NCBI GenBank assembly: GCA_024398755.1
Contig: JAKSIQ010000008.1
Location: 1 to 56,634 of the forward strand
Direction of reading: 5' to 3'
Source of the DNA: Bacteroidaceae bacterium
Lineage (GTDB): Bacteria > Bacteroidota > Bacteroidia > Bacteroidales > Bacteroidaceae
Length of the DNA: 56,634 nucleotides
A program made the position numbers and the translations under genes. Position 1 is the first letter of the stretch. The number at the start of each line of letters is the position of its first letter. The notes under the pieces were generated by a model. The model was not told where the DNA came from. It did no database searches and worked only from the letters and a program-made list of their open reading frames with translations. Shown one piece after another: positions 14,927 through 22,333 of this stretch.

Positions 14927-15817
14927 TCAGAAACAGAGCCAGCATATTGCTCCAGTAGCCACTATGATGCCGGCAACCTGATGGGGACGCATTTTCTCAT
15001 GGTAATGCAGCCATCCTACAAGCGCTCCAATGGTGACGATTCCAAGATTGTGGACTGGAAACAATATTGACGAGTCTATTGTCTTCATGGCTATCATCAG
15101 CGAGTATGTGCATACATAGTTGACAATGCCGAGCAACACTCCCCCTACTACATTCTTCCACTGGAATCCGTGGCGGTTTCTGATAAATGAGAAAAGCCCG
15201 TAAACCGATGCGAACAGGAAAATGCATGCTGTAACCAGTGAGAGCTCACGGTTGACCATGGCATCGGGCCACTCGGCACGGTTAACGACAACTCTGTCCT
15301 GAATCAGTTTGTTGATGGCATTGCTCAGGCCGAAGCACAGGAAGACGCCTAATGGAATCAGAACATCCATGATTGAGAATTTACGCACGTTTTCCTTGTC
15401 TTTTCCGGTCCAGACGGCCAGTGACATTCCAATGACGACCAGAGCGACTGCAATCCACTGCGGCTTTTTGCTGCCTGCCACGAATATGTATGACAGTATT
15501 ATGGGGATAATCATCGAGGCGCGGCTGCACACCGTCGATATGGCCACACCTACACTTTCGGTCGATTTGGACAGTATGACCATTCCAGCTATGAATATGA
15601 AGCCCAGCAGTGCCACAGGTCCCAGCCAGCGTTCTTTGAGCGGGTTCGATACCAATGTGCCGTCGAAAGAGAATATCAGCCCGAGAACGAAGGCTGTCAG
15701 ATAGTTGAAGAATATGGCCTGCATGGAATCAATCTTGCGTATCTCAAAAATCTTGAAGAAGATTGAGAACATAGCCGCACATATGGTGGCTATTACAAGG
15801 TTCAGAATTGCAACCAT
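14927..15817 (-). CDS. EamA/DMT-family transporter
   Basis: A 296-residue inner-membrane protein with about ten hydrophobic segments arranged as two repeated EamA halves (roughly 1-140 and 150-296). Examples are ILNLVIATICAAMFSIFFKI, AVALVVIGMSLAVW and the terminal AGIIVATGAICWLCF. DMT carriers export or import small metabolites. The gene begins 13 bases after pncB on the same strand and has no obvious promoter, so it is likely co-transcribed with NAD salvage. A role in nicotinate or nucleoside movement is an inference from that pairing only. Confidence 0.88.
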   Translation of the reverse strand: MVAILNLVIATICAAMFSIFFKIFEIRKIDSMQAIFFNYLTAFVLGLIFSFDGTLVSNPLKERWLGPVALLGFIFIAGMVILSKSTESVGVAISTVCSRASMIIPIILSYIFVAGSKKPQWIAVALVVIGMSLAVWTGKDKENVRKFSIMDVLIPLGVFLCFGLSNAINKLIQDRVVVNRAEWPDAMVNRELSLVTACIFLFASVYGLFSFIRNRHGFQWKNVVGGVLLGIVNYVCTYSLMIAMKTIDSSILFPVHNLGIVTIGALVGWLHYHEKMRPHQVAGIIVATGAICWLCF

Positions 15818-15830
15818 AACCTCTTGAATG

Positions 15831-17027
15831 TCAAATCAGTCCAAGTATTACCTTGTAGCTGTGGATTTCGTCCGGGTTGCCGAGTTCCTTGCCTGGCACA
15901 TCGCTCAATTTGACACATCTGTATCTTGGCTGGCGCGGGTTGACCTGGAAGTACTGGAGTTTCATGACTATGTTCAACGGAGCCTCGCCTACGTCGTTGG
16001 TAAGGTTGGTGCCAATGCCGAACGATACCCTTATGCGGCCTTCAAAGTACTTCTGAATGGCCAGAGCGCGTTCAAAATCAAGAGCATCGCTGAACACTAT
16101 GGACTTGGTCATAGGGTCAATGTTGTACGACTTGTATTTGGCAATCATCTTGTCGCCGAATTCAAACGGGTCTCCGCTGTCATGACGTACGCCGTCATAC
16201 AGTTTTGCCATGTCCATTGAGAAGTTGCGCAGGAACACGTCGGTGGTGAAGCAGTCTGTAAGCATAGTGCCCAGTGCACCTCCATATATGTCGGCCCAGT
16301 GTCGCATTACATAGTAGTTGGCTTCCTTCGGTCCCATGAATGCCGCTGTTGACATCATAAGCTCGTGAGCCATTGTACCTATGGGTTTCAGATCCTTGCG
16401 TATGCTCTGATATTTCATTGCGAAATACACGGTCGAAGAGCCAACAAAGAATTTTGCATTCCTGGCCAGATACTCGGTCACTTTGTCTTCTACTTTGTGG
16501 GAATAACGGCGGCGCATTCCAAAATTCGCGAATTTGATGCCGTTTTCATTTGACAGGGCGACTTTCTTCTCAAGCTGGTTTTCAATATATGTCCAGTCAG
16601 GTTCGCCCATATTCTGCCACTTGTAATAAATTTCCGATATGATGCTCAGAATTGGAATCTCGTACAGCGTAACCTTGTATATCAGGTCTTTGGCCTCGAC
16701 ATGCAGATGACTTTCGTCGTCAAGCCAGACTCTGATGATTGACGGATCATAATGAAATCCTCTGAGCCATTCAAAATAGCACTGCGGTATGAAATAGATA
16801 TTCTTCAGACACCATCCGAATTCCTGTTCGGTCAATGACAATGAAGACAGTTTCTTGAATTCCTCATTCAGCAGATCCACGAATTCCTGTGTGAAAACCT
16901 GCTTGTTACGATCTGTGAAATTGAATGTACCAATTCCCTCAGGAGTGGTACGCTGGTAATAATATGACATAGAGAACTTGTACAAATCGTTCTCAAGCAT
17001 GCTTATTACAGTGGAGCCGATAGCCAT
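15831..17027 (-). CDS. pncB: Nicotinate phosphoribosyltransferase
   Basis: A 398-residue type II PRTase that makes nicotinate mononucleotide from nicotinate and PRPP in the Preiss-Handler NAD salvage pathway. Signatures are LENDLYKFSMSYYY near the N-terminus, the FNFTDRNKQVF segment, FVGSSTVYFAMK, TMAHELMMS with the auto-phosphorylated His region, DGVRHDSGDPFEFGDKMI, and SIVFSDALDFERA followed by VSFGIGTNLTND. The start at 17027 (MAIGST) is chosen; a longer frame reaches 17066 without support. Length is normal for PncB. It heads an operon with a DMT transporter. Confidence 0.93.
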   Translation of the reverse strand: MAIGSTVISMLENDLYKFSMSYYYQRTTPEGIGTFNFTDRNKQVFTQEFVDLLNEEFKKLSSLSLTEQEFGWCLKNIYFIPQCYFEWLRGFHYDPSIIRVWLDDESHLHVEAKDLIYKVTLYEIPILSIISEIYYKWQNMGEPDWTYIENQLEKKVALSNENGIKFANFGMRRRYSHKVEDKVTEYLARNAKFFVGSSTVYFAMKYQSIRKDLKPIGTMAHELMMSTAAFMGPKEANYYVMRHWADIYGGALGTMLTDCFTTDVFLRNFSMDMAKLYDGVRHDSGDPFEFGDKMIAKYKSYNIDPMTKSIVFSDALDFERALAIQKYFEGRIRVSFGIGTNLTNDVGEAPLNIVMKLQYFQVNPRQPRYRCVKLSDVPGKELGNPDEIHSYKVILGLI

Positions 17028-17106
17028 AACTAACTTGTTTATATAGTTTTCTACAAAGATTGGCAATTTATCAATAACAAACGTCCAAAAACTGGAAAAA
17101 AATGGA

Positions 17107-20100
17107 TTACAATGTCAGTTTGATTCCCAATTGGACATACCAGCAGTTGTTTTGTGAATTGAGTGGTTCGAACGACTGTGTTACTGGTTTGTCGTTGACC
17201 ATGGCTATCTGGTAAGTCGGTTCTCCCCTGTCATTGGTTCCCTTGAATACAAGCGGTCTTCCGCCGTTTGATGCCAGATTGGTTTTCTCCACACCCCATT
17301 TGCTGCATATCAGATTGCCGGCATTCATGATGTCAAGTGACAGCTGGACCATTTTGAAGTTCTGGGCCACATGAATGTCAAAACGGTTCAGCCAAGGAAG
17401 AAGCGCTTCATTTGCGCCGGCGTATTCTCCAAGATGCGAAGACAGATATCTGTCCTGGTTGACGAACGATGCAAACAGATATTTCTGCTCCTGTGCCGTA
17501 TATAATATATTCCCTGCTCCATCTTCAATATTGACAAAAACAATGTCGTTCAAATTTGATGGAATCCACATAAGGTCATTGTTGACTCCGTCGCCGTTCA
17601 TGTCATTCGAATAGCAGTAACTGAAACGGCCGGCGTTTGAACCGCTGTAGAAAAGACCGAATTCAGTAGTGCCCCAGAAGGTTGAATTCCTATGTTCCAG
17701 GCTGTAAGTGGCGTTTGCAACAATCCTGTGCGGAATGGAATAAGACGATGCTCTAAGAACCACCTCGTTCGGACTGTTGACATTCGGAACGCTGCTCCAA
17801 GTGGAACTGAGACTTGATCCCAGCATATCAGAGACAGACAATGTCTTTTCGTATATGTAAGACAGCTCTACATTCAGATTCCGTACAGGCTCGGCGGACA
17901 GTGTTGTGCAAATGGACCATCCGTATCCCTTGTCGGTATTGCTGAGTACCATGGCGCCGCCCGATTTTGACACCTCGGTATTCACTACGCGTGAGTCGCT
18001 GAAATCATAGCGTTTGTCCTTTCCGGTAAAACGACCCAGAGAATTGAAAGTTTCCTGATTCCAGTTTTCAACGTAAACCGCATTCACATCTTTGCAGAAA
18101 ATGCCTTCAATACCCGCTTTCATGGGGAACGATGTCTCAAACTGCCCGTCAAGTGCTATTGATGTCTTCCAGACCTGAGGCATCTTGAAATCCTTGCTTA
18201 TTGCCGTTATGGAAGAACCTTTTCCCAATGTGCCCTCGCCTGCCTGCATTTTCGCTCCGTTCTGCGTCAGATACTCACGCAAAGACTGTTCCGTATATAG
18301 GAAATTGTTCTCAAGACCTGCCAGGAATCCGCTTCCACCCGTATCGGTCACCGTATTCTGAAGCATTCCGCTCGAGTTCTGTATGCATGTAAGGAATACC
18401 ATTGGAATGCGGCCTTTGAACATGCCGCTTCCTCCGTGAAGTACAAGCTTGTCGTTAATCTGCCAGTTGAAACCTATTCTTGGTGAAATGTGGACATACG
18501 AATCGGGCCATGAACCGGTATCAAGTGTAGGTGACTTGTAATCAGGGCTTTCGCTTCCCGGGGTCTTGAAATGTCCTGTCCAGTCAAGTTGGGCAATGGC
18601 ACGGTTCGATGCCGGAAGGTCATGGTATGCTATGGCATCGGCCCTTATGCCGTATGTAGCTGTAAGACGGTCCGATATGCGCGTTTCGGCCTGGAACATG
18701 GCCGATGTCTGGTCGTATGTGGCTCCCGATGACGGATCGTCAATGCCGTCATAACAATAAGTCATGCCGAATGCTACAGGCGCTTTCTGTTCAATGAAAT
18801 CCTGCAGTGACGCATAACGGTAATAGCCTGTTCCGTACATAGTGTAACTGGTCTTGGCCTGCTGGTACTGGTATGCGGCGCCAAGCATGAAGTTGCTGTG
18901 TCCGGCCGACCAGCTCAGATGGTCGCTCACGCTGTATGTGTACACTCTGTTGCCGGTTCCGTTTGAAAACAGTTCGTATCCGGCGCTCATGAAGGCATCG
19001 CCGTCCTTCATTATGTCAATGTGTGGAAACCATGATGAACTGGATGAACGTTCGTTGCTGACCTTAGATACTGTTGCCAGCAGTTTGTTCGAAATGCTGC
19101 CGCGGTTGCCGAACAGACTGTTCAGTTCAAGCGCTCCTGACCATGCGTTGTCATGAATGTCATAGCAGTTGTTGCTGAATGCGTATGCGTTCTGTGACAC
19201 ACGTTCCGATGTCATTTTTGAACCGACAGTGCTTCTGGCATTCGGAGCATACGCCTCTGTGCTTCCGGTCCAGTTGTAACGCAACATCAGATTATGTCTT
19301 TCTGAAATGTTGAAGTCAATTCTTGAAAGCAGTCTGTACACTGTCTGGCCACCGTCTGTAAGGTCTGTGCTGCCCGGATTATAACCATATTGTCCAAGAG
19401 CGCTTTTGAAAGCGTCCATATCGGCCTGAGTGACACGGCTGGTCATTTCCTTTGAATTACCCACTCCGTCGGCAGACAGTTTCCATTCGCTGACAGGTCC
19501 CGGCGAAGTTGTCATTTCAGCATTTGCAAAATAGAAAAGCCTGTTCTTGACAACAGGTCCGCCAACAGTGAATCCTGTGGTGTTCAGACTCTGTTTCTGT
19601 CTTTCTCCAAGACTGTTGCCGTCAACCTTGTTGCCACGCATGTTCTGGTTATGGAAATAGTCATAGACGCTGGCCTGAAAGCGGTTGCTTCCCGATTTTG
19701 TTATGACGTTTATTCCTCCGCCGGTGAAATCGCTCTGCCGCACATCGTATGGGGCAATGGCAATCTGCATCTCTTCTACCGCATCGACCGATATCGGAGT
19801 ACCGGCACCTGCAAGGTCTGAACTCAGTCCCATGCTGTTGTTCAGAATGGCTCCATCGATTGTAAGACTGGTGGTTCTGCCGTCACGTCCTCCCATTGTG
19901 TTGCCGCTGCCGCTGTACGGTGACAGTCTGGCATAGTCAAGAAGGCTGCGGTTGGCCGACGGCAGTTTTTCAATTGTTGAAGAGCCTACCTGATATGTCT
20001 GGCCTGTCTTTGTTTCGGAAAAACTGTAAGAGGCTTCCGATATGACAATGTCCTCAAGCTCAACGACGCTTTCCGTCATTGTGAAATCGAGCGCGTAGTC

Positions 20101-20424
20101 CTGGGCCGATTTGATGGCGACAGACATGACGCCTGAGGTCTCATATCCTATAAAAGAGAACCACACTTCGTAAGTGCCGGGCTTCAGACCTGACACCGAA
20201 TACCAGCCATACTTGTTGGTTACGGTACCATATGTGGTGCCTGTATTGCTGTTCTTTATCTGTACGTTGACAGACCCGAAATTGTTTCCGTCGGGATCTT
20301 TTACCGTTCCGTGAATGGAACCTGTTGTCTGCTGTGCCGACAATTCTGCTGTAGCCAGCACCAGTACCATGACTGTGCACAGTACCTTCTTCAATAATGA
20401 AGCTGTAAATAATGATGTTTTCAT
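17107..20424 (-). CDS. Oar-like TonB-dependent receptor under an FMN riboswitch
   Basis: An 1105-residue outer-membrane receptor. Order: signal peptide (MKTSLFTASLL... ELSAQ), a carboxypeptidase-regulatory-like domain (SIHGTVKDPDGNNFGSVN to GYETSG), a plug domain (EKLPSANRSLLDYARLSP, TTSLTIDGAILNN, ISVDAVEEMQIAIAPYD, FTGGGINVITKSGSN) and a C-terminal beta-barrel ending in an aromatic/hydrophobic strand (WYVQLGIKLTL). The APYDVRQSDFTGGGIN motif is typical of the Oar-like receptor group, not of SusC. The start at 20424 is set by the riboswitch, which ends only 4 bases upstream; longer frames would translate through it. FMN control points to riboflavin/FMN uptake or to a flavin-linked function. 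No SusD partner and no riboflavin synthesis gene is adjacent. Confidence 0.9.
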   Translation of the reverse strand: MKTSLFTASLLKKVLCTVMVLVLATAELSAQQTTGSIHGTVKDPDGNNFGSVNVQIKNSNTGTTYGTVTNKYGWYSVSGLKPGTYEVWFSFIGYETSGVMSVAIKSAQDYALDFTMTESVVELEDIVISEASYSFSETKTGQTYQVGSSTIEKLPSANRSLLDYARLSPYSGSGNTMGGRDGRTTSLTIDGAILNNSMGLSSDLAGAGTPISVDAVEEMQIAIAPYDVRQSDFTGGGINVITKSGSNRFQASVYDYFHNQNMRGNKVDGNSLGERQKQSLNTTGFTVGGPVVKNRLFYFANAEMTTSPGPVSEWKLSADGVGNSKEMTSRVTQADMDAFKSALGQYGYNPGSTDLTDGGQTVYRLLSRIDFNISERHNLMLRYNWTGSTEAYAPNARSTVGSKMTSERVSQNAYAFSNNCYDIHDNAWSGALELNSLFGNRGSISNKLLATVSKVSNERSSSSSWFPHIDIMKDGDAFMSAGYELFSNGTGNRVYTYSVSDHLSWSAGHSNFMLGAAYQYQQAKTSYTMYGTGYYRYASLQDFIEQKAPVAFGMTYCYDGIDDPSSGATYDQTSAMFQAETRISDRLTATYGIRADAIAYHDLPASNRAIAQLDWTGHFKTPGSESPDYKSPTLDTGSWPDSYVHISPRIGFNWQINDKLVLHGGSGMFKGRIPMVFLTCIQNSSGMLQNTVTDTGGSGFLAGLENNFLYTEQSLREYLTQNGAKMQAGEGTLGKGSSITAISKDFKMPQVWKTSIALDGQFETSFPMKAGIEGIFCKDVNAVYVENWNQETFNSLGRFTGKDKRYDFSDSRVVNTEVSKSGGAMVLSNTDKGYGWSICTTLSAEPVRNLNVELSYIYEKTLSVSDMLGSSLSSTWSSVPNVNSPNEVVLRASSYSIPHRIVANATYSLEHRNSTFWGTTEFGLFYSGSNAGRFSYCYSNDMNGDGVNNDLMWIPSNLNDIVFVNIEDGAGNILYTAQEQKYLFASFVNQDRYLSSHLGEYAGANEALLPWLNRFDIHVAQNFKMVQLSLDIMNAGNLICSKWGVEKTNLASNGGRPLVFKGTNDRGEPTYQIAMVNDKPVTQSFEPLNSQNNCWYVQLGIKLTL

Positions 20425-20428
20425 AATT

Positions 20429-20530
20429 CTTCTTTCATCCAGACTATACTGTCGGTACCGTAGTTCCAACGGTTCGGCCTTTCGGCTCGCGGACTTTACC
20501 GCCGGTCGGGAATTGCACCCTGCCCTGAAG
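20429..20530 (-). ncRNA. FMN riboswitch (RFN element)
   Basis: The minus strand carries the conserved RFN sequence blocks in order: CTTC (P1 5' arm, 20527-20530), AGGGTGCAATTCCC (P2), GACCGGCGGTAAAGTCCGCGAGCC (P3 region), a short GCCGAAAGGC helix (P4), a short CCGT/ACGG helix (P5), then CCGACAGTATAGTCTGGATG (P6 and J6/1) and GAAG (P1 3' arm, 20429-20432). The usual CGG/CCG in P6 is CAG/CTG here, a paired change. The closing P1 arm GAAAGAAG lies 4 bases before the ATG and would serve as ribosome-binding region, so FMN binding should hide it and repress translation. Confidence 0.93.
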
Positions 20531-20537
20531 TATGTTG

Positions 20538-20563
20538 GCGAAGCCGGCTTGTACCGGCTCCGC
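20538..20563 (-). terminator. GC-rich hairpin after aspS, upstream of the riboswitch
   Basis: Ten-base arms GCGGAGCCGG and CCGGCTTCGC around a TACAAG loop, nine bases after the aspS stop codon. There is no T-run behind it, so it may be a weak terminator, an mRNA-stabilising 3' end, or an insulating stem before the riboswitch. Confidence 0.45.
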
Positions 20564-20593
20564 ATTTATATATCACTGCTGTCTGACGTCAAC
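20562..20593 (-). promoter_or_regulatory. Candidate promoter of the receptor gene
   Basis: On the minus strand: GTTG (20590-20593, inside the end of aspS), a 19-base spacer, then TATAAATGC (20562-20570). The -7 box is imperfect. If unused, the receptor would depend on read-through from aspS. Confidence 0.3.
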
Positions 20594-22333
20594 CTTCAAG
20601 CAAAGTTCGTCAAGCTGGCTCGGATCAAGCTGGCCCGGAGCGTCAAGCATGACGTCACGTCCTGAGTTGTTCTTTGGGAACGCAATGCAGTCACGTATGC
20701 TGTCAAGTTTTGCGAATATGCTTACGAAACGGTCCAGACCGAATGCAAGACCTCCGTGAGGTGGTGCGCCGAACTTGAAGGCGTTCATCAGGAAACCGAA
20801 CTTGGCCTGAGCCTGTTCCGGTGTGAAGCCCAGAATCTTGAATATTGTGGCCTGAAGCTTGCTGTCGTGGATACGTATTGAACCGCCTCCCACTTCAATG
20901 CCGTTGATAACCATATCGTATGCATTGGCGCGGACGCTTGCAGGATCGGTGTCAAGCAGCGGAATGTCTTCCGGTTTCGGGCTTGTGAACGGATGGTGCA
21001 TGGCCATGAGGCGGTTTTCCTCGTCGCTCCATTCGTACATTGGGAAGTCAATGACCCACAGGCACTTGAACTTGTTCCTGTCACGCAGGCCGAGTTCTTC
21101 GGCAACCTTGAGACGAAGTTCTGAAAGCTGTTTGCGGGTCTTCATGGCATCGTCTCCGCTCAGAATCAGGATAAGGTCTCCCGGTTCGGCGTTGAAAGCA
21201 GTCTTCATATTCTGCAGCACGTCCTGGGTGTAGAACTTGTCAACGCTTGACTTGACGCTGCCGTCAGCTTCGACGCGGGCGTAAACCATGCCTTTGGCGC
21301 CTATCTGAGGACGCTTCACATATTCTGTAAGCGCATCAAGCTGCTTGCGGGTGTATGTTGCGGCACCCTTGGCGCAGATACCGCCAATATATGCTGCATT
21401 ATCAAACACGCTGAAGCCGCAGCCTTTCATAATGTCCATAAGTTCAACGAAATGCATATCAAACCTCAAGTCGGGTTTGTCGCTTCCGTAGTACTTCATG
21501 GCATCCTGCCAGGTCATGCGCTGGAACGGTTCGTTCATTTCAATTCCGAGAATGCTCTTGAACAGATGCTTGGCCAGAGCCTCGAATATCTGGAGAATGT
21601 CCTCCTGCTCCACGAATGACATTTCGCAGTCAATCTGTGTGAATTCCGGCTGACGGTCAGCACGAAGGTCTTCGTCGCGGAAGCACTTGGCTATCTGGAA
21701 GTAACGGTCAAAGCCCGATACCATGAGCAGCTGCTTGAGAATCTGCGGACTCTGTGGCAGAGCGTAGAACTGACCGGGATTCATGCGTGAAGGAACCACG
21801 AAGTCACGGGCGCCTTCGGGGGTCGAGTTGATCAGAATCGGGGTTTCAACCTCCATAAAGTTCAGATTGTCAAGGAACTTGCGTATTTCCATGACCATCT
21901 TGTGACGAAGTTCCAGATTGCTGCGTACGCACTGGCGGCGCAGGTCCAGATAACGGTATTTCATGCGCAGGTCATCGCCTCCGTCGGTATCGTCCTCAAT
22001 TGTGAAGGGAGGCGTGTCGGCCACATTGATGATATTCAGGCTGTCAACCAGAATTTCAATGTCACCGGTAGGCATCTTGGGGTTCTTGCTGGAACGCTCG
22101 CTCACGATACCGTCAACCTGAATCACATATTCACGGCCCAGACGTGAAGCCTGTTCGCACAGTTCCGCGTTCTGGCTGTCATTGAACACAAGTTGTGTAA
22201 TACCGTAGCGGTCACGCAGGTCAACAAAGACCATGCCGCCCAATTTTCTGGCTTTCTGTACCCATCCGGCAAGTGTCACCTTGCTTCCGGCATCGGAAAG
22301 ACGCAGTTCTCCACAGGTTTTTGTTCTGAACAT
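20573..22333 (-). CDS. aspS: Aspartate--tRNA ligase
   Basis: A 586-residue class II synthetase of the bacterial type. Visible parts: OB-fold anticodon domain ([32 protein letters not shown]), motif 2 ([23 protein letters not shown]), the GAD insertion domain (about 280-420), and motif 3 near the C-terminus ([11 protein letters not shown]). Discriminating tRNA-Asp from tRNA-Asn specificity is not attempted. The length is usual for bacterial AspRS. Its ATG follows a perfect -7 box at 22368-22376; the riboswitch-controlled receptor gene is immediately downstream. Confidence 0.97.

Follow-up and report, generated by a model that had tools for sequence, protein, structure and literature searches.

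Why should a riboswitch for flavin mononucleotide (FMN) stand directly before the gene of an outer-membrane receptor? This question is raised by the window analysed here, a stretch of 56,634 nucleotides from a Bacteroidaceae bacterium (GenBank assembly GCA_024398755.1, contig JAKSIQ010000008.1), in which the minus strand carries an FMN riboswitch aptamer followed by an Oar-like TonB-dependent receptor. Our answer, to which we give a probability of roughly 0.7, is that the receptor is an FMN-repressed, TonB-driven outer-membrane flavin importer in a gut organism that apparently cannot produce riboflavin; transport and substrate are what we infer. The locus contains the following elements.

20423..20536, minus strand: FMN riboswitch aptamer (RF00050), full-length by covariance model (110 bits), conserved upstream of receptors in 26 of the 37 genus genomes.
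20527..20534, minus strand: 5' strand of helix P1; 6 of 8 pairs are standard in the window, and the inner four are standard in all 26 genus leaders.
20425..20432, minus strand: 3' strand of helix P1 according to the Rfam alignment and the sequence, purine-rich and immediately 5' of the ATG; presumably the ribosome-binding region.
17107..20424, minus strand: Oar-like TonB-dependent receptor (receptor A), an open reading frame (ORF) of 1105 residues plus stop with Pfam support; its profile matches in 31 of 37 genus genomes.

The initial annotation had placed a riboswitch at 20429-20530 of the minus strand on the basis of conserved blocks and had proposed a covariance search. That search (cmscan) confirms the element, with RF00050 matching 20536-20423 at 110 bits (E 9.1e-25) against a gathering score of 66.2. 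The match covers model positions 1-138 and is therefore complete, and no second match at E <= 0.001 is found in the genome of the window (1.97 Mb, 87% complete). The start codon of the receptor, ATG at 20424-20422, abuts the 3' strand of P1 and overlaps the final two Rfam model positions; the distance of 4 bases to the ATG given earlier is consistent with the end of the last conserved block. An alternative, longer in-frame start at 20565 is disfavoured, because the aptamer would then fall within the coding sequence and because the ATG of relatives keeps an offset of -3 to 0 bases relative to the aptamer end in 26 of 26 leaders. The frame itself is, as annotated, a TonB-dependent receptor of the Oar-like and not the BtuB-like kind. 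It matches OMP_b-brl_4 (PF25183, 150 bits), CarboxypepD_reg and TonB_dep_Rec_b-barrel (PF00593, 30.1 bits with a cut-off of 27), so that both barrel families of an outer-membrane receptor lie above cut-off, while no NCBIfam model matches at E 0.001, TIGR01779 (BtuB) included.

The pairing of riboswitch and receptor is not confined to the window. Our genus sample comprises 37 genomes, many of them incomplete, and includes the genome of the window as G000. Twenty-six carry the riboswitch, in one copy each and with aptamer scores of at least 93 bits, and in each of the 26 a receptor frame begins within 3 bases of the aptamer end (in G006 only 39 residues are readable before the contig ends). The receptor belongs to subfamily A in 21 genomes and to a second subfamily, B, in five (G008, G012, G014, G018 and G032). 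Receptor B has about 750 residues and is plug-bearing, as determined by Pfam for G014; three B receptors scanned against NCBIfam score far under the cut-offs. Profile searches find A in 31 genomes, B in 5, both in none and neither in G016. In BLAST comparisons, the A receptor of the window and the B receptor of G014 match only their own kind, and the B-type receptor of G041 partially matches two A receptors (27-29% coverage). Judged by sequence, A and B are subfamilies of one superfamily. Given that they are mutually exclusive in the 37 genomes, the simplest reading is that one receptor was exchanged for the other with the same job. The receptor B copy of G012 (L042, G012:C32) is broken into two frames. 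Solved structures were considered as a guide and set aside: profile A aligns with no more than short segments of the colicin I receptor, and profile B with just the plug and C-terminal regions of siderophore receptors and others.

The leaders of the genus share a compact architecture. A promoter-like sequence, TTG followed after 18-21 bases by [TG]AnnTTTG, is present in 23 of the 26 leaders; its end lies 5 bases upstream of the aptamer in 18 of them and 12-17 bases upstream in the other 5. We take the underlying motif to be that of a promoter, and the count is to be read with the fact that the pattern was chosen after looking, having been relaxed when its first version matched 1 of 26. With the promoter-like sequence ending so close to the aptamer, most leaders would consist of little more than the aptamer. 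The adjoining of ATG and P1 leaves no room for an expression platform, and control is likely exerted by direct occlusion of the ribosome-binding region through P1. The same placement is found in known riboswitches in which the ribosome-binding region lies inside the aptamer core or P1. This arrangement is said to be most common for three riboswitch classes, the same source seeing no clear reason why others do not use it more often; here it is proposed for the FMN aptamer, which throughout the genus seemingly works without a separate expression platform. In the window, the region upstream holds two further elements.

20538..20563, minus strand: strong hairpin of 11 bp in the interval from the aspS stop to the aptamer, not followed by a U-run (from the fold of 20573-20395).
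20573..22333, minus strand: ORF upstream of the receptor that we take, from its sequence, to be aspartyl-tRNA synthetase (aspS).

The promoter-like pattern of the genus leaders is missing before the aptamer of the window. The leader is perhaps read from aspS, and the receptor may be co-transcribed with it.

What connects the receptor with flavin supply is the apparent absence of riboflavin synthesis. The synthesis gene ribH (PF00885) is found in 0 of the 37 genus genomes, with all 14 control genomes positive, and 36 of the 37 contain RibF (PF06574). Based on this gene content, members of the genus are probable riboflavin auxotrophs that would still be able to convert riboflavin to FMN and flavin adenine dinucleotide (FAD).

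The same connection is seen across the order. In a sample of 295 genomes, in which ribH absence means not being among the genomes that match PF00885, the riboswitch is present in 65, ribH in 239 and a B profile match at E 1e-40 in 164. We read the sequence downstream of 65 riboswitches from 64 genomes; G301 was dropped because its riboswitch lies at a contig end, G323 was counted with a match that ends at the contig edge below the gathering score (28.5 bits), and G252, which carries two riboswitches, was classed with the ribH-bearing genomes. A receptor comes first at 27 of the 65 loci, namely 25 B-type receptors, receptor A of the window and an Oar-like receptor in G184. At the other 38, the first gene is ribD or ribB. 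All 38 contain motifs that we take to be those of ribD or ribB, with the ORF starts of G116, G146 and G313 uncertain.

The two arrangements separate by ribH: all 26 riboswitch genomes lacking ribH have the receptor first, and all 38 with ribH have a rib gene first, G252 carrying its second riboswitch before a receptor (Fisher's p 4.5e-17, with relatives not being independent). By their labels, the 26 receptor-first genomes without ribH span 16 families, and genus g78 holds both states (G112 and G216). Among the best 24 B-profile matches, 23 sit at riboswitch loci; the remaining one, in G286, has only 157 upstream bases, with no riboswitch match and no riboswitch motifs in them. Outside the genus of the window, the first ORF start at receptor-first loci lies 37-235 bases after the aptamer, except in G260, G162 and G138 with -1, 1 and 7 bases. 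FMN riboswitches are rare outside the order: in a phylum sample of 395 genomes, which includes the genome of the window, 29 have one. As a separate observation, G252 (L168, L202) has one FMN riboswitch before a rib operon and another before receptor genes and a nucleotide pyrophosphatase, and at this second locus a piece of 190 residues precedes the B-type receptor.

The link between receptor and flavin supply suggested by the initial annotation thus emerges in a stronger form, with the riboswitch before a receptor where ribH is lacking and before rib genes where it is present, and the pairing recurs in other families of the order. The initial annotation is right in substance: neither of two outcomes that would have spoken against it, an insignificant RF00050 score and a pairing not kept in related genomes, was found. 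The view of the Oar-like receptor as an unusual candidate needs correction. The receptor is Oar-like here, but the pairing is wider, and since subfamily B is the usual partner across the order, it is not the oddity of one Oar-like receptor. We find it reasonably likely that Bacteroidales which lost riboflavin synthesis carry the FMN riboswitch before outer-membrane receptors in place of the rib operon, and that these receptors constitute a class of flavin importers dependent on TonB, comprising at least two subfamilies, B order-wide and the Oar-like A replacing B in most of the genus of the window. Several families would in addition have a pyrophosphatase that turns scavenged FAD into FMN. If true, both receptor families become candidates for flavin importers, and it would be explained how gut Bacteroidales auxotrophic for riboflavin subsist on vitamin B2 from other producers. 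It would also mean that a riboswitch was retained while the gene downstream was swapped for another of equivalent function.

For the window, we propose the following sequence of events. At high internal FMN, the ligand would bind the aptamer and P1 would close, hiding its 3' strand just 5' of the start codon from the ribosome, and no receptor would be made. When FMN falls, P1 would open and the receptor would be translated. The receptor would then import a flavin (riboflavin, FMN or FAD) across the outer membrane, driven by TonB. From the periplasm, the flavin would move inward, possibly via the neighbouring carrier of EamA type described below, and RibF would convert it to FMN and FAD.

The best-surviving alternative holds that the receptor imports another substrate, for example iron, haem or a different cofactor, the need for which tracks flavin status, with FMN as signal only. 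Receptor B weakly resembles haem, siderophore and B12 receptors, with scores below cut-off, siderophore receptors are the closest solved chains, and cross-regulation of iron and riboflavin is described in the available part of PMC6041382. A role in iron or haem uptake leaves unexplained, however, why among riboswitch genomes, G252 aside, a receptor-first riboswitch occurs only in those without ribH. It also fits poorly with the 2015 survey, in whose available text FMN riboswitches precede, a few exceptions apart, riboflavin genes or carriers (PMC4418817). We regard this alternative as unlikely.

Several observations weigh against the reading as flavin importer. The call of auxotrophy uses ribH as its single synthesis marker, scored in incomplete genomes. 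No riboswitch match is found in 30 of the 56 order genomes without ribH nor in 11 of the 37 genus genomes. In seven readable genus genomes, the DNA upstream of receptor A gives no RF00050 match even at E 10, and one of the riboswitch-less copies, that of G017, is the sister of the receptor of the window in the receptor tree. Pfam does not match the Plug domain (PF07715) in receptor A. Finally, the EamA carrier adjoins pncB and pncA-like genes in genus members.

The riboswitch-less copies of A stand directly after aspS in five genomes (G003, G017, G025, G031 and G035) and elsewhere in two (G001 and G028). In G004, G010 and G029 the receptor gene is interrupted by contig ends, and the remaining genome, G016, has neither receptor. 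As with G017, the riboswitch-less copy of G025 is sister to a riboswitch-bearing one (G033), with deeper forks of the tree unsure. These two positions point to secondary losses of the riboswitch, as far as the tree can tell. With seven readable A copies lacking a riboswitch upstream, FMN control of receptor A is common but not universal. The receptor A copy in G031 (L146, G031:C48) contains four in-frame stops and is perhaps a decaying gene.

These copies bear on a second alternative, in which gene replacement placed an ordinary Oar-like surface protein, receptor A, behind the riboswitch, leaving the riboswitch as a remnant with no part in flavin import. Oar-like receptors are common in Bacteroidota, copies of A do exist without a riboswitch, and a riboswitch pattern is found at 5 of 80 loci matching the A profile, all five in the genus (some loci have little upstream DNA, and the pattern, a regular expression, missed 2 of 61 positives). 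A mere remnant is difficult to reconcile with well-kept aptamers and a fixed position of the ATG in all 26 leaders despite receptors that are only 49-57% identical to that of the window, nor would it account for A and B never occurring in the same genome. An Oar-like receptor also stands directly behind an FMN riboswitch in another family, in the ribH-less genome G184 (L220, G184:C157), where 168 residues are readable to the contig end; this is perhaps an independent recruitment. On balance, we consider the replacement scenario quite improbable and retain the flavin importer as the preferred reading.

This importer would extend known vitamin uptake systems. According to the accessible part of PMC6977713, thiamine uptake in Bacteroides involves OMthi-PnuT, an outer-membrane receptor with an inner-membrane carrier, and the excerpted 2007 metagenome study describes BtuB-type receptors under thiamine and B12 riboswitches and seven FMN riboswitches over rib genes only (PMC2211319). 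Similar to these systems, the locus would combine a TonB-dependent vitamin receptor of Bacteroidota with an inner-membrane carrier and a riboswitch before the receptor (PMC2211319, as far as its text is available), the vitamin here being deduced. Unlike in the thiamine and B12 systems, an FMN-class riboswitch is involved, and the receptor is either Oar-like (A) or of a separate plug-bearing type (B). Flavin transport genes under FMN riboswitches are familiar from the carriers RibU, RibM/PnuX, RibN, ImpX, RibXY and RibZ, and the gene in the window, as a candidate for flavin transport, shares this arrangement; it differs in coding for an outer-membrane receptor, of which there is none among those carriers in the available text (PMC4418817).

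In that text, the non-synthesis genes listed by the 2015 survey, which covers 842 FMN riboswitches from 1133 genomes, include no outer-membrane receptor, and there is no match for TonB, outer membrane or Bacteroid (PMC4418817). The accessible part of a 2019 gut survey has no match for TonB or FMN riboswitch (PMC6593275), and the available portions of PMC6041382, PMC13028884 and PMC12702654 name no outer-membrane flavin importer. Among the open-licence papers listed by literature searches and judged mainly by title and abstract opening, none describes an FMN-riboswitch-controlled outer-membrane receptor or a route for flavins across the outer membrane of Bacteroidota. What is new is the placement of the riboswitch before an outer-membrane receptor that replaces the rib operon in probable auxotrophs, in two receptor subfamilies, which would add an FMN case to the riboswitch-controlled vitamin receptors.

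Downstream of the receptor, the window holds a candidate partner and a gene that separates the two.

14927..15817, minus strand: carrier with EamA domain (drug/metabolite transporter type, PF00892), the candidate inner-membrane partner.
15831..17066, minus strand: nicotinate phosphoribosyltransferase (pncB), between receptor and EamA carrier (NCBIfam TIGR01514, above cut-off).

The EamA carrier is present in 34 of 37 genus genomes. In 27 of these it is no more than 3 kb away from the receptor, and in 20 the distance is at most 300 bases. The three genomes without it (G001, G016 and G028) are riboswitch-less too. RibN belongs to the EamA type, and the carrier of the window is likened to it by domain alone. 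In the part of PMC4418817 available, RibN is a carrier of riboflavin and FMN restricted to Proteobacteria. The pncB and pncA-like neighbours make a nicotinate role possible, so the substrate of the EamA carrier may be nicotinate; for pncB itself, no role in flavin uptake is claimed. That the whole locus serves nicotinate-type vitamin uptake, with receptor, EamA carrier and pncB as one unit and FMN status as a general redox-cofactor signal, appears very improbable, since the interposed pncB of the window and G017 and the nearby pncA-like and pncB genes of other genus members have no counterpart downstream of receptor B at the loci read across the order, where a link to ribH loss does appear.

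For the flavin importer, further candidate partners come from the other receptor-first loci. A nucleotide-pyrophosphatase motif is found at 7 of the 27 (G112, G138 with a short frame, G139, G192, G238, G239 and G252), where the DNA read extends over less than 2 kb in G082 and G184 and over 6.5 kb in G056; PF01663 is confirmed for three of the frames (G112, G139 and G238). The window itself contains no such motif. These frames suggest scavenging of FAD, as judged from their motifs, and this fits the use of FAD by the proposed importer. The riboswitch-receptor loci L213, L214, L217, L221, L228, L233 and L239 of other families end in a nucleotide-pyrophosphatase frame.

A second receptor accompanies the first at some of the receptor-first loci, Oar-like in G056, G139, G192, G267 and G305 and B-profile-like in G112, G238, G239 and G323. 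The five Oar-like ones were rejected as orthologues of A: they score 517-903 bits with the A profile compared to 993-1197 bits for 69 unlinked Oar-like relatives, and the tree places them separately, with an unsure position owing to long branches. Other carriers occur as well. G041, G160 and G258 have a carrier of the major facilitator superfamily further along, behind an opposing frame (Pfam for G041), and in G162 a nucleoside-type carrier adjoins the receptor. PnuC-family carriers were dismissed as a specific clue, PF04973 being found in 37 of 37 genus genomes; in the three loci opened (G001, G028 and G000) the carrier adjoins another receptor in an arrangement that resembles thiamine uptake. 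In the genome of the window (L225, G000:C86:21000-32000), this PnuC-family carrier follows another TonB-dependent receptor, with a frame nearby that appears EamA-like by eye.

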